This document shows, one piece after another, positions 11,135 to 16,800 of a DNA stretch of 21,559 nt. Location: IMG/VR virus record IMGVR_UViG_3300010354_000805, positions 1-21,559 of that record; one strand, 5' to 3'. Position 1 is the first letter of the stretch. The number at the start of each line of letters is the position of its first letter. This DNA is from a virus. Both the position numbers and the translations under genes were made by a program. The notes under the pieces were generated by a model, which ran no database searches, was not told the DNA's origin, and saw only the letters and a program-made list of their open reading frames with translations.

Positions 11135-11526
11135 ATTTTGATAAAAAAACAGATCTATTCTTTGTTGTAAATAACATCACAAACGGCAAAGATAATTTGT
11201 TTTCTGATGGATTGCAAGAATCTGTCTATAAACCATACTTGATAAACAAAGCACTGTCTTACTATCCAGACACCATAATGCACGCAAATGAAATGAATAG
11301 ATATTTTAATGCACCAAGAAAATATCAATATGAATATCTATTTCGATCAATTAGAAAGCGAAAGCGATTTTCAAAATGGAATAAAAAAATTGAAAATCCA
11401 GATATAGGAATGCTCATGGAGTATTATGGAGTATCTACGAATAGGGCTGAAGAGTACTTAAATATATTGACAAAAGAACAAATACAAAAAATACGAATTA
11501 AGACGAATAAAGGGGGTCTAGACTGA
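11131..11526 (+). CDS. 62: Clamp loader small subunit gp62
   Basis: 131 residues, clearly shorter than T4 gp62 (187), but it has the conserved middle: INKALSYYPDTIMHANEMNRYF (about 48-69), then EYLFRSIRKRKRFSKWNKKIENP (about 68-90), which corresponds to the T4 NYLMAAVPRGKRYGKW segment. It is translationally coupled to gene 44 (ATGA). In T4, one gp62 joins four gp44 in the loader. The short length reflects loss of N- and C-terminal parts rather than a frameshift: the frame is open and the gene ends just before the regA leader. The identification rests on position plus the middle motif. Confidence 0.85.
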   Translation: MNFDKKTDLFFVVNNITNGKDNLFSDGLQESVYKPYLINKALSYYPDTIMHANEMNRYFNAPRKYQYEYLFRSIRKRKRFSKWNKKIENPDIGMLMEYYGVSTNRAEEYLNILTKEQIQKIRIKTNKGGLD

Positions 11527-11532
11527 TATTTT

Positions 11533-11540
11533 TATAAATA
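11533..11540 (+). promoter_or_regulatory. T4-type late promoter upstream of regA
   Basis: Exact TATAAATA in the 51-base gap between genes 62 and regA. Predicted +1 is about 11546, giving a leader of about 32 bases. A TATAAT word (11548-11553) also lies in the gap but has no convincing -35 partner. This motif would drive regA and the coupled structural genes late in infection. Confidence 0.6.
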
Positions 11541-11566
11541 TAAATGTTATAATTATACATTTATAT
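11538..11566 (+). repeat. 10-bp inverted repeat overlapping the regA late promoter
   Basis: ATATAAATGT (11538-11547) is perfectly complementary to ACATTTATAT (11557-11566), with a 9-base spacer. The left arm overlaps the late promoter and lies almost wholly upstream of predicted +1, so only transcripts reading through from gene 62 would form the full hairpin. The right arm ends next to the weak GGA of the regA ribosome-binding site. The stem is almost all A-U and therefore weak. Confidence 0.45.
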
Positions 11567-11577
11567 GGAAAAATATC

Positions 11578-11985
11578 ATGGAACAAAATAATTCGTTGGT
11601 TGATTCGTTATTAGAAATAAAACTTTCAAAAGAAGATGATTTTTTAAAAGTAAAAGAAACCCTCACCCGTATAGGTGTATCTTCTAAAAAAGAAAAAAAA
11701 TTATATCAGTCTTGTCACATTTTACACAAAAAGGGCAAATATTACATAGTTCATTTTAAAGAACTTTTTTTATTAGACGGACTAGAATCCGATATTACGG
11801 AAACCGATATTGGACGAAGAAATACTATATCTAAATTATTAGAAGAATGGGGTCTTCTTACAGTAGTGGATAAAGATAAGTTAAATGCTATACTTACACC
11901 ACTAAATCAAATAAAAATTATACCCCATAAAGAAAAATCAGACTGGCAGTTGGTTCCTAAATATCATATAGGGAAAAAATTCTAA
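11578..11985 (+). CDS. regA: Translational repressor RegA
   Basis: 135 residues (T4: 122). T4 RegA binds initiation regions of early phage mRNAs, including those of genes 44 and 45 and its own. The match to T4 is strong: DFLKVKETLTRIGV (21-34), KLYQSCHILHKKGKYYIVHF (41-60), the RR pair near 81, LLEEWGLL, and WQLVPKYHIG near the end. The extra residues are a 10- to 13-residue N-terminal extension. The ribosome-binding site is weak (ATGGAAA). A second ATG at 11565 opens an 8-codon out-of-frame reading frame that ends at 11591, overlapping the regA start. The stop overlaps the next start by one base (TAATG). In T4 regA is followed by DNA polymerase gene 43; here structural genes follow. Confidence 0.96.
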   Translation: MEQNNSLVDSLLEIKLSKEDDFLKVKETLTRIGVSSKKEKKLYQSCHILHKKGKYYIVHFKELFLLDGLESDITETDIGRRNTISKLLEEWGLLTVVDKDKLNAILTPLNQIKIIPHKEKSDWQLVPKYHIGKKF

Positions 11986-12377
11986 TGGCAACAGGAACTT
12001 ACGACATAACAGCAGAGTCTAATTCTGATTTTAAACTAGAAATACAGTATACAGATTACAATGATTTACCTATAAATTTAACAGGTAAACATATTATTTT
12101 TTCACTAAAAAGGACATCACTTAATCTTCAAGATGATGTTTTTGCCATTTATAGCAATGTTGCCGATCAAATCGAAGGAACATTAGAATATCCAAACTCA
12201 GATAATTCATATGGATCTATACAAATTACACATATTACAGGCGAAATTATTATAAATATTGATAAAGAGGTTATGCAATTATTGGAACCTGGTCAATATT
12301 TTTATTCAATTCGTTTAAATAGTTCCAATTTTTCTGAAAATATTCTAAAGGGAAGATTTGATTTACAGGCGTTCTAA
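11985..12377 (+). CDS. Beta-sandwich structural protein, probable baseplate or fibre component
   Basis: 130 residues, rich in predicted beta strands, with GTYDITAESNSDFKLEIQYT at the N terminus and PINLTGKHIIFSLKR (29-43). The pattern of a leading linear-response segment followed by IxLTGxxxxFxxK is common in small phage structural proteins encoded next to tail fibres. No signal peptide. A one-base overlap with regA (TAATG) and AGGGA 9 bases upstream suggest coupled translation. The location before fibre genes supports a virion role; the specific position in the particle is unknown. Confidence 0.65.
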   Translation: MATGTYDITAESNSDFKLEIQYTDYNDLPINLTGKHIIFSLKRTSLNLQDDVFAIYSNVADQIEGTLEYPNSDNSYGSIQITHITGEIIINIDKEVMQLLEPGQYFYSIRLNSSNFSENILKGRFDLQAF

Positions 12378-12499
12378 TGGCAAATAAAATAAAAATAAAA
12401 AATAATTCAGAAAATAAAATATTTGTTATAAGAGATCTACCCAAAAAAATTAAAATTAAAAGGGGGAGACAATTAGTTATAATTGTCTTAACTAACTAA
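12377..12499 (+). CDS. 40-residue basic peptide in the regA-fibre chain
   Basis: A short reading frame joined at both ends by one-base overlaps (TAATG at 12375-12379 and at 12497-12501), which is why I call it a gene. The peptide begins MANKIKIKNNSENK and continues IFVIRDLPKKIKIKRGR, ending QLVIIVLTN: about a dozen Lys or Arg, no acidic cluster, and alternating polar/hydrophobic residues that suggest beta strands. No family recognised. AAGGGAAG (12348-12355) is over 20 bases upstream, so initiation probably relies on coupling. Its 3' end encodes the ribosome-binding hairpin for the next gene, so part of its sequence may be constrained as RNA. Confidence 0.55.
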   Translation: MANKIKIKNNSENKIFVIRDLPKKIKIKRGRQLVIIVLTN

Positions 12500-12501
12500 T
12501 G
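12461..12501 (+). promoter_or_regulatory. Hairpin-split ribosome-binding site for gene 12499
   Basis: AGGGGGAG (12461-12468) is over 30 bases before the ATG, too far for normal use. Between them AGACAATTA (12467-12475) pairs perfectly with TAATTGTCT (12480-12488) around a GTTA loop, extendable by a G-U pair (12466/12489). Folding leaves about 10 bases between the G run and the ATG. T4 genes 25 and 38 are known to use such an arrangement. No U run follows, so it is not a terminator. Confidence 0.6.
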
Positions 12502-13479
12502 GCATTATACAGAAGACGCGGAAATGTTGTATATTACGGAAGAAATGCCGCCGTTACTAATTTATTAGCGGGCCCACAAGGGCAACGTGGTCCACAGGGC
12601 ACAGGGGTCAATAGAGCGGATGTTAATACAAATGGCGAATTAGTATTAGGTCTTACTGATAATACAGAAATTAATGCAGGATCTATTGTTCCAGCAAGCG
12701 AAGTGTGGACTAAAGATGATGTAATACCAACAAGCATAGGTGGTATTGCTGCAGGAACAGTCGGGCAGACTTTAGATGGTTTGACTCCTATGCAAATATT
12801 AGAAAAATTGTTATATCCATATCAAGCACTTTCTGTGTCGTCATTCAGTGTTGGATTGCCGATTTCTACCACAGTTGAAGTTGGAACAATTAGTGCTGCT
12901 GGAATCTATTCAACTTCTTGGGCATTTAATAATGCATCAAATCTAACAGCAAATAGTATATCAATTAAACAAGGAACCACTGATCTGGCTACAGGATTAA
13001 ATGTAAGTCCATTTTCAATAACACATCCACAGTACCAATATACAACTCCAACTCAATTGCCATTTACAATTAGTGCAGGCCAAAAAGAGGGAGCAAATGT
13101 AACCTCTACTGTTAATTATAGCTGGAAATATAAAACTTATTGTTTTAAAAGTTCTCTGACTAGTTTGGGCAATGGGTTTAATCCAACAACAGACGCAACA
13201 GTATCTGGATTATCTTCTGCCTTTACCTCTGGGTTGTTTTCTTTTGCAAATACTAATTTTAGTACTTCTTCAACAGAGGAACAATATTTGTATATATTAT
13301 TACCATATTTAAATTTTACAAATTCATATAATTCTTTCACTTTGGGGGGATTTCCTTGGGATAAACAATCCCTATCCTCCGCAATAAATATTACAATAAA
13401 TGGTATAACTGCTTCCTATAAATATTATAGATCAACTAATAAAACACAATCGACACCAACAATAATTGCCTCTATTTGA
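12499..13479 (+). CDS. Collagen-motif virion/tail protein
   Basis: 326 residues. The N terminus MALYRRRGNVVYYG is followed by a short collagen-like Gly-X-Y stretch (GPQGQRGPQGTG, 25-36), common in phage fibre and decoration proteins. Residues 65-110 contain ...GGIAAGTVGQTLDGLTPMQILEKLLYPY, a motif I associate with phage structural proteins that trimerise. The remainder (112-326) is Ser/Thr/Asn-rich beta sequence with Ig-like character. It lacks membrane segments. It is the last gene of the TAATG-coupled chain from regA and seems to use the split ribosome-binding site. A late-promoter-like TATAAATA lies near its 3' end (13417). Receptor binding or fibre attachment is inferred from context. Confidence 0.7.
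   Translation: MALYRRRGNVVYYGRNAAVTNLLAGPQGQRGPQGTGVNRADVNTNGELVLGLTDNTEINAGSIVPASEVWTKDDVIPTSIGGIAAGTVGQTLDGLTPMQILEKLLYPYQALSVSSFSVGLPISTTVEVGTISAAGIYSTSWAFNNASNLTANSISIKQGTTDLATGLNVSPFSITHPQYQYTTPTQLPFTISAGQKEGANVTSTVNYSWKYKTYCFKSSLTSLGNGFNPTTDATVSGLSSAFTSGLFSFANTNFSTSSTEEQYLYILLPYLNFTNSYNSFTLGGFPWDKQSLSSAINITINGITASYKYYRSTNKTQSTPTIIASI
13417..13424 (+). promoter_or_regulatory. Possible late promoter for gene 13497, inside upstream gene
   Basis: TATAAATA lies 73 bases before the ATG at 13497, within the coding end of the collagen-motif gene. The position is reasonable, but the motif encodes Tyr-Lys-Tyr here, and several copies are expected by chance in coding DNA this AT-rich. Confidence 0.3.
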
Positions 13480-13496: not shown

Positions 13497-13790
13497 ATGG
13501 GAATACCTTTAAGTGGAAAAATAGAACCGTTAGACCCCAACAACGACGATTATCCCGTAACTGATCCAAAATATGGACTTGGTGGGCTTAGAACTGTAGC
13601 CAATTTACAAGAAAAATATAACATTCCATATGCAAGAAGAGAATTGGGAATGTTAGTTTTTGTACAAGATCAAAATGCATATTATAAATTAAAAAATATT
13701 GGGTATGATGCGACAGCAACAATAGGCGCGGATTGGGAACTTTTACAAATAAGTGGGCAACTTGGAGACATTGATGCGGGAAATTATTAA
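13497..13790 (+). CDS. 97-residue tail/virion structural protein
   Basis: Small protein with AAGGA (13486-13490) 6 bases before the ATG. DPKYGLGGLRTVANLQEK (23-40), YARRELGMLVFVQDQNAYYKL (45-65; two motifs) and a final DWELL match a module that I recognise in phage virion proteins: a segment converting identifiers of the type GGxRxVAxxxxR..IPxxRRxxGMLVxVxxxxxxYxL. It is often fused to larger fibre proteins; here it is free-standing. No catalytic motif. It lies between the collagen-motif protein and the large fibre, so it probably forms a connector or accessory part of the fibre or baseplate. Confidence 0.6.
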   Translation: MGIPLSGKIEPLDPNNDDYPVTDPKYGLGGLRTVANLQEKYNIPYARRELGMLVFVQDQNAYYKLKNIGYDATATIGADWELLQISGQLGDIDAGNY

Positions 13791-13810
13791 ATTATAAATA
13801 TATTTAATAA
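13784..13810 (+). repeat. Inverted repeat enclosing the late promoter of the large fibre gene
   Basis: TTATTAAAT (13784-13792) is perfectly complementary to ATTTAATAA (13802-13810), enclosing TATAAATAT. One bulged T would extend the stem by three pairs. The left arm includes the stop codon of gene 13497 and lies upstream of predicted +1 (13806). The Shine-Dalgarno sequence (13819-13823) is outside. It may be chance in such AT-rich DNA. Confidence 0.35.
13793..13800 (+). promoter_or_regulatory. T4-type late promoter for the 1522-residue fibre gene
   Basis: Exact TATAAATA in the 39-base gap before gene 13830. Predicted +1 at 13806 gives a 24-base leader with a strong AGGAG (13819-13823) placed 6 bases before the ATG. 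This is a clean match in sequence, position and downstream signals. Confidence 0.75.
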
Positions 13811-13829
13811 CGCAAATTAGGAGTAAATA

Positions 13830-16800
13830 ATGGCTTCACCAAAAATTAGAATAAAAAGAGGATCAGGAGCACCAACATCAGCAGCAATACCATCTTCTGG
13901 CGAAATGGCATTGGATACTGCTAATAAATCATTATTTATTACTGTAGCAGATGGAACGACACCAACTTGGATCGGTGCTCAAATCGAAACTTCTCCTGCA
14001 GATTGGACTTCTTCTACAAAATTAGCAACACAAAGTGCAATTAATACGACATTTTTACCAAAAACTGGTGGGCAACTTGCTGGAAATATTACTACAGTAA
14101 ATGGTTCAATAACTACCATAGAAATTCCTAAATTAAAAATTAAACAAAGAAACGGCACTGCTGGTACCGGTGTGACTTTACAGGGTCCAGCAAATGTTGC
14201 AACAGATTACACATTAACACTACCTAGTGCCGATGGAGCCAATAATCAGTTTTTAAAAACTGATGGTAGTGGAAATCTCTCTTGGGCATCATCACTGTCT
14301 GGTATAACTCTTACTGAATTAACACCAACTGACACTGGTGATTATGGTTTACTAATGTCAAATGCTTCAAACGGTGCTTCGGTCAGTTCTGTTAACTACG
14401 ATTTTGCAGGTGATGTACAGGGGTTGGCACCAAGTGCACCAAAAAACGGTCCAATAAAATATAATAAAAGTAGTGGAACATTAACAGTTAATGGAAACAT
14501 GATTGTAAATGGTCAAGCGGCAAATCTAGTAATGACACCAGCCGCCGCAGGAGGAGTAAGTAATAATGCAACATCTTTTACGTTATCGACTGTAAGTGGA
14601 TTATCTCTTGGTCAACAAGTATATGTCAATGAAAATTTTTCACCACCGTCTACAGGTGGTCCTTGGGTTATTGAGTTTCCAAACGAATCAACAATTACTA
14701 ACATCGATACAGGATCAAAAGTAATAACGGTATCTACTCCAATAACAATAACGGCAAATGGAGTTAATTCTTCATTAACTAGTGGTCAAGTAACAAATTT
14801 ATTAAAATTTGCAACAGGAACAGTTGTTCTTGGTGTTGATCCAGGTAATGGTAATAATTCAGTTAGATTATTTAATACTGATGTTGATGCATTAAATATA
14901 GGTGGCTCAGCTAGTACTGTTTCGATTGGTGCAACTTCTGGCTTATTAAGTATTCCTAGTTCAGTGACTCTTGCTAATGGAGCAAGTAACATCGCCAGTT
15001 TAGATTTTAATTCATCAACTACAACTGCAAACTTAGCAAACACAGTACCAGCAACAACTTTAAACATTGGCGGCGCTGCAACCACAACCAACTTAGGTAA
15101 AACCGGAGGAGCAACAACAACAATAAGAAGCAACACAATAAATATTGCAAACGATACAGGATCTTCTGCAAAAACTATAAACATAGGAACCGGTGGTAGT
15201 GGTGATGCTACTGTAACAATAGGTAGATCTAGTGGCTCCACACAAACGCATACAATTTATGGAAAAATTTCAAATAGTGGATTTGGAACTCTAGGTTCTA
15301 GTGATGGTGGAGTACTTGTAACAAAATCTTATGTTGACTCTGTTGCTGCGGCTGGGTTGACCAGTAAAGGTGCGGTGAGAGTTGCTACAACAACATCTGG
15401 AACATTGAGTTCAAGTTTTGCAAACGGCAGTACTGTTGATGGTGTGACTTTAGCGACAAATGATAGAATTTTAATCAAAGATCAAACTACTAAATCTGAA
15501 AATGGTATTTATACAGTAAATGCTAGCGGAACACCAACAAGAGCAACTGATGCGGATGAAGCAGTAGAACTTGCAAAAGGAACTTATGTATTTGTTACTG
15601 CGGGAACGGCAAATGCAGGTAAAGGGTTTATTTTAAGAACTGGAGTGGTTACTCTAGGCACAGATTCATTAGATTGGGATCAATTTACAACAACTACAAA
15701 TTATACATTCAGTAATGGTTTAACAAATACTTCAGGAACAATAACAGTAAATCCAGCAACAAATGGTGGATTAAGTGTTACTGGTAGTGGCGTTTCGGTT
15801 GCATCAACGTTTGCAGGATCGGGTTTAACTTTATCATCCGGTGTTTTGACAGTTGATGGTATAACTGAAGTTGTTTATGCAACAACCGGCCCATTTAACG
15901 CAGGCTACAGCAACGGAACATCCGGTGATGGTGCAACTCTAACAAATGGCGGCACACAAGCAGCATTTTCTATAGATGGTGCCTCGCCAGCACAACATAC
16001 AAGAATTCTTGTAAAAAATCAAACAAACACTGCACAGAATGGAATTTATACTCTAACTACAGTAGGAAGTGGTAGTGCGAATTGGGTATTAACTAGAGCA
16101 GCAGATTTTAATGTTGCAGCAGAATTACAACAGTTAAATACGGTTTTAGTTACTTCAGGAGCAGCAAATGGAGGAAAAACATTTAATTTATTAACCAAGG
16201 GAACAATAACAGTTGGCACAACTGGATTAAATTTTACAGATTCTAGTACTGAAGTTATGTCTACAGATAGTAGATATTTTATTGTTGGTGCAAATAGAGA
16301 AAGAACGAATTTAGGCACAAACAACAATATTACTTCAAAATCTGTTGCAATAATTGCAGGATATTCTGCTCCTACAGGCAATAGTTTATCTGCAGAGGGC
16401 ACTATAACTTTTAGCACTTCTTCTTCAAAACTAAGTTCAGATATAATTCCAGGAATGAAAATAACTTTCTTGGGAACTATATATCCTGCTAATCTTGTTG
16501 TCGAGACTGTAAATTATAATGCTGGAACATTTGTTGCAAGAAATAGAGGAACTTCTGCTATTACTAGTATACCCGGCACACCTGGCACCGTAATTAATCA
16601 AAATATTATTTTTGATGGTGCATCAGGCGCGAGCACAAGTGCAGATCAAAATTATGATAATATAGGTCATAGAGGTATGATGATTTTTGACAAATCGGAT
16701 ATGACAAGTTGGTCCGCTTTAGGTTATAATACAGGACCAAGTGGATCATATACTGATGGATATTGGAGTATAGTTAGATCTGAAACTGATGGGTTAGGTA

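Follow-up and report, generated by a model that had tools for sequence, protein, structure and literature searches.

A candidate hairpin-bridged Shine-Dalgarno sequence at an overlapping gene junction in an uncultured T4-like phage

Two genes of bacteriophage T4 are translated from split initiation sites, in which a hairpin shortens the distance between the Shine-Dalgarno (SD) sequence and the start codon. For gene 25 the hairpin reduces this spacing from 27 to 11 nt, as confirmed by reporter assays and DMS probing, and for gene 38, also a proven case, from 22 to 5 nt (PMC3014915); for the gene 26-25 split site the sources are Nivinskas (1999) and Malys and Nivinskas (2009), as cited in PMC3014915. 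The gene 25 arrangement is present in about 30 T-even phages, all close T-evens, and is missing from distant relatives (PMC3014915), so that a narrow distribution is by itself no argument against function. Overlapping gene pairs reinitiate, and such coupling is common, with an SD contribution that ranges from none to essential (PMC6728339). The literature that we consulted for comparison holds two split sites of this kind, both from T4; a third, independently derived and located at a junction that relatives use with no SD sequence, would mean that initiation across a hairpin has evolved more than once and can begin as an add-on to coupled translation and, if real, shows how split sites are born from overlapping-gene junctions.

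The window analysed here, the whole 21,559-nucleotide stretch of record IMGVR_UViG_3300010354_000805, represents part of the genome of an uncultured T4-like phage. Its genes run in the order clamp loader gp44, gp62, RegA (11578), a phrog_1084-like gene, a 40-codon gene and genes of a putative tail-fibre region, a designation suggested by the long repetitive proteins encoded downstream; Synechococcus phage DSL-LC03 and Pelagibacter phage Mosig have gp44 proteins with about 53-54% identity to that of the window. Many viral contigs retain the succession of regA, phrog_1084-like gene, 36-40-codon gene and next gene, from which we conclude that the 40-codon gene is real. Homologous ORFs of 36-40 aa occupy the same position in about 35 related loci, and the identity of the product in the three closest relatives is 65, 57 and 45%; the 40-aa protein of the window has no PHROG match. 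The 326-aa protein encoded next gave best segments that are 65 and 59% identical in two contigs, with the alignment starting from M1-A2, and searches with either this or the 40-aa protein for additional relatives returned only the same two contigs. No annotated phage carrying the gene at 11985 was found, and bacterial genome contigs contained no relatives. The features of the junction are as follows.

12377-12499, plus strand: gene for the 40-codon basic protein, whose 3' end bears the SD sequence and stem; syntenic ORFs of 36-40 aa lie between the phrog_1084-like gene and the next gene
12460-12466, plus strand: distant SD sequence AAGGGGG, recognised by the anti-SD duplex energy of the octamer AAGGGGGA; missing from relatives
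12467-12488, plus strand: perfect 9-bp hairpin AGACAATTA-GTTA-TAATTGTCT, from sequence and predicted fold; relatives lack a comparable stem
12489-12498, plus strand: 10-nt spacer TAACTAACTA that remains once the stem is looped out, containing no SD sequence
12497-12501, plus strand: TAATG, in which the stop of the 40-codon gene and the start of the next gene share 1 nt
12499-13479, plus strand: gene for a 326-aa protein of the tail-fibre region; the product has a conserved start residue and a short stretch of collagen-like sequence, GPQGQRGPQG

The small proteins of this family (36-40 aa, basic) end in a short hydrophobic stretch, such as VIIVLTN, TTTILVP or TTVIVK. The gene that follows the small ORF varies among relatives, encoding mostly mutually dissimilar products of 77-326 aa, and to judge from these sequences the junction looks as if it were a cassette boundary.

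The segment from 12460 to 12501 reads AAGGGGGAGACAATTAGTTATAATTGTCTTAACTAACTAATG, and most of the architecture originally predicted was borne out: a sole good SD sequence more than 30 bases from the ATG, a perfect 9-bp stem with a GTTA loop in the interval, a spacing of about 10 bases on folding, and the embedding of SD sequence and stem in the 3' end of the 40-codon gene together with a TAATG overlap. The SD sequence is 32 nt from the ATG at 12499, beyond the distance for direct use, and none is closer, the nearest 22 nt being without an anti-SD match. The arms at 12467-12475 and 12480-12488 pair at all nine positions, and looping out of this stable predicted hairpin restores a spacing of 10 nt, within the range of 5-11 nt. 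The G run was predicted correctly, but the SD letters given originally, AGGGGGAG, overlap the stem by two bases, and the best free anti-SD match is AAGGGGG. The octamer that contains it has a duplex energy of -9.7 kcal/mol against the anti-SD, a stronger match than is found near any other start in the window. The isolated stem, which starts at the base adjoining the SD sequence, is predicted at about -8.1 kcal/mol, with a possible tenth pair between G12466 and U12489; G12463-12465 may also pair weakly with an upstream CCC. A 66-nt context folds at -12.9 kcal/mol versus -5.6 +/- 1.9 for shuffled sequences (z -3.9), and the predicted pairing probability of the 9-bp stem is about 0.99 at every context length tried, from 66 to 351 nt.

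The likeness to T4 gene 25 is closer than the original prediction stated. In both cases the SD sequence directly precedes the stem (7 bp with a 4-nt loop in T4) within the 3' end of the upstream gene, the T4 sequence has the same 1-nt TAATG overlap, there with gene 26, and the distribution is restricted, in T4 to close relatives. The genes are different, however, the window site serving a tail-fibre-region gene after a 40-codon gene, and the sequences are unrelated; the window stem is longer and its SD sequence stronger. Whereas the gene 25 site is experimentally proven and occurs in about 30 T-evens, that of the window is a single candidate known from sequence. Gene 38 likewise has a hairpin that shortens the spacing between SD sequence and ATG and lies in the tail-fibre region, but it does not overlap its neighbour gene 37, which ends 26 nt upstream, and its hairpin is a G+C-rich UUCG hairpin. 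The TAATG overlap, and the abutting stop and start in the whole phage group, are as in termination-reinitiation coupling, although at coupled junctions of the usual kind an SD sequence is either close by or absent, and the window adds a distant SD sequence and a stem.

The related junctions place this site in context. The gap between stop and start is -1 to +2 nt in the window and in all 21 related junctions, so that stop and start overlap or abut throughout the phage group. None of the 21 has a usable SD sequence within 22 nt (best -2.8 kcal/mol), a far SD sequence stronger than -4.9, or a hairpin better than -3.9 kcal/mol, and neither the stem nor the SD sequence of the window is kept in any of them, all being from phages of other species; nor was the exact SD-plus-stem sequence found elsewhere in viral contigs. 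In the three closest relatives, whose small proteins are 45-65% identical, A-rich sequence takes the place of the G run. The stem of L087 is weak, at 6 bp, and is not accompanied by an SD sequence, and a further 18 junctions, beyond L086, L004 and L087, have neither. The original prediction named as refuting evidence relatives that keep the gene without the stem or a nearer SD sequence, and this is partly the case, since in L086 and L004 both genes are kept in this state; yet the distant SD sequence is also missing there, so that a site at work in the window phage is compatible with the absence of the stem from these phages. The relatives refute the need for a split site, which is unnecessary for start use among them, and not its working in the window phage. 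Compensatory changes in related phages, a check proposed originally, gave the stem no support, pairing in the three closest relatives being at the level that their coding predicts. Apparent covariation in a four-sequence alignment was rejected, the structure having been taken from the window itself, and is also undercut by synonymous sampling, which shows pairing in the relatives to be no greater than expected from coding. SD sequences are used at 40% of overlapping starts versus 24% of separate ones; with no overall trend to less SD use at overlapping starts, the SD-less state is particular to the junction of the small ORF and the next gene. The ancestral mode of initiation here looks like SD-less termination-reinitiation coupling.

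We propose that initiation at 12499 would come mainly from ribosomes that have completed the 40-codon gene and start again on the overlapping ATG, an arrangement kept, without an SD sequence, throughout the phage group. In the window phage only, the 3' end of the small gene would have gained a strong SD sequence and the 9-bp hairpin, which would loop out 22 nt and so place the SD sequence 10 nt from the ATG; the resulting split site may also recruit 30S subunits, or hold post-termination ribosomes, and would in this way raise initiation at 12499. We give an even chance to such a phage-specific site of the T4 gene 25 type being superimposed on the coupled start, and slightly less than an even chance to the reading that such a site evolved independently of T4, in a distantly related T4-like phage and at a coupled junction that ancestrally had no SD sequence. 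At best the split site would be a young helper on a start that does without it elsewhere. A consideration against it is that a ribosome at the stop of the small gene would, given the ribosome footprint, cover the 3' arm of the stem.

The absence of SD sequence and comparable stem from all 21 related junctions is also what is expected if the site is a coincidence on a coupled start: the gene would be expressed only through coupled termination and reinitiation at TAATG, and the codons for K-R-G-R-Q-L-V-I-I-V in an A+T-rich phage would have produced the G run and the hairpin as by-products. The peptide predisposes to a stem, since it alone predicts 6.1 of the 9 pairs, and all nine, with G-U allowed, form in 2.9% of synonymous sequences. 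Because the QLVIIV codons are nearly self-complementary, a T4-25-like site appears in about 0.9% of synonymous resamplings of the same peptide; an equally strong site appeared in none of 20,000. A perfect Watson-Crick 9-bp stem has a probability of 0.0017 under this sampling, AGGGGG one of 0.012, and both together about 5e-5 (0.005%), figures that, like the other chance estimates here, have to allow for the approximately 22 starts in the window and the open-ended first reading. This joint rarity argues against coincidence, as does the construction of the G run from the minority codons AGG and GGG. Perfect 9-bp hairpins with loops of 3-8 nt number three in the window versus 1.3 expected, near chance, and the stem by itself is thus unremarkable; its placement between a strong SD sequence and a start is rarer than the stem alone.

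A scan for this geometry across 779 unique gene starts returned two matches, T4 gene 25 (-12.2) and the 12499 site (-17.5), although the scan had been loosened with gene 25 in view until it was recognised, so that this positive control is not independent, and its filter missed T4 gene 38. The same filter passed 10 of 2564 internal ATGs (about 0.4%), the best of them at -15.5, and when 17,921 coding positions were sampled, 18 scored -17 or better, several of these being almost the same in sequence. As a class, gene starts therefore show no enrichment for the split architecture (2/779 versus 10/2564), though the 12499 combination is extreme, the strongest among starts and internal ATGs alike. 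Coincidence seems to us slightly short of an even chance; between a functional add-on and a coincidence the odds are about even, and either way coupling would be the basic mode of initiation.

An SD energy of -9.7 within a translated gene could also mean that the G run works without the hairpin, either as an internal SD sequence at which elongating ribosomes pause or as a standby site close to the stop of the small gene, the hairpin being incidental. SD motifs inside upstream genes often help reinitiation (PMC6728339), but 32 nt exceeds normal SD spacing unless looped, and the stem adjoins the SD sequence; we consider this very unlikely. Less likely still, and barely credible, is that the hairpin, predicted to be stable and located where two genes meet, has a role unconnected with initiation, as a terminator, protein operator or site of mRNA processing: a U run is absent, the hairpin is not among the terminator-like sites, an Rfam search of the window gave no match, and the loop is not of the UAAC type found in the T4 gene 43 operator. 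A terminator and promoter reading was likewise rejected, the sites being at chance level only.

A second RNA structure was observed upstream, at the regA start (11578), where a conserved, covarying structure spans 11524-11578 in the window and seven relatives (L005, L006, L020, L021, L023, L024 and L026). Its helix pairs TGATATTTTT (11524-11533) with the SD sequence through the A of the ATG (about 11569-11578), around an inner hairpin at 11538-11566, and a late-promoter-like TATAAATA (11533-11540) lies between the 5' arms. Pairing extends to 93% of cells over the eight sequences and includes 16 double changes, counts that lean towards the structure since it was predicted from the same alignment; none of 500 shuffles reaches that level, and slid registers pair at 48-70%. 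The layout is like that of the timing switch of T4 gene e, where late-promoter transcripts lack the 5' arm. By analogy, long early regA transcripts would hide the SD sequence and late transcripts would lack the 5' arms; an alternative is that the structure is a RegA operator. A limited literature search returned no description of this leader structure, which looks better supported than the split site at 12499. Further downstream, the region 13785-13830 ahead of the 1522-aa gene (13830) contains ATTATAAATATA and a good SD sequence, TTAGGAGT, which suggests that this gene may have a late promoter of its own.
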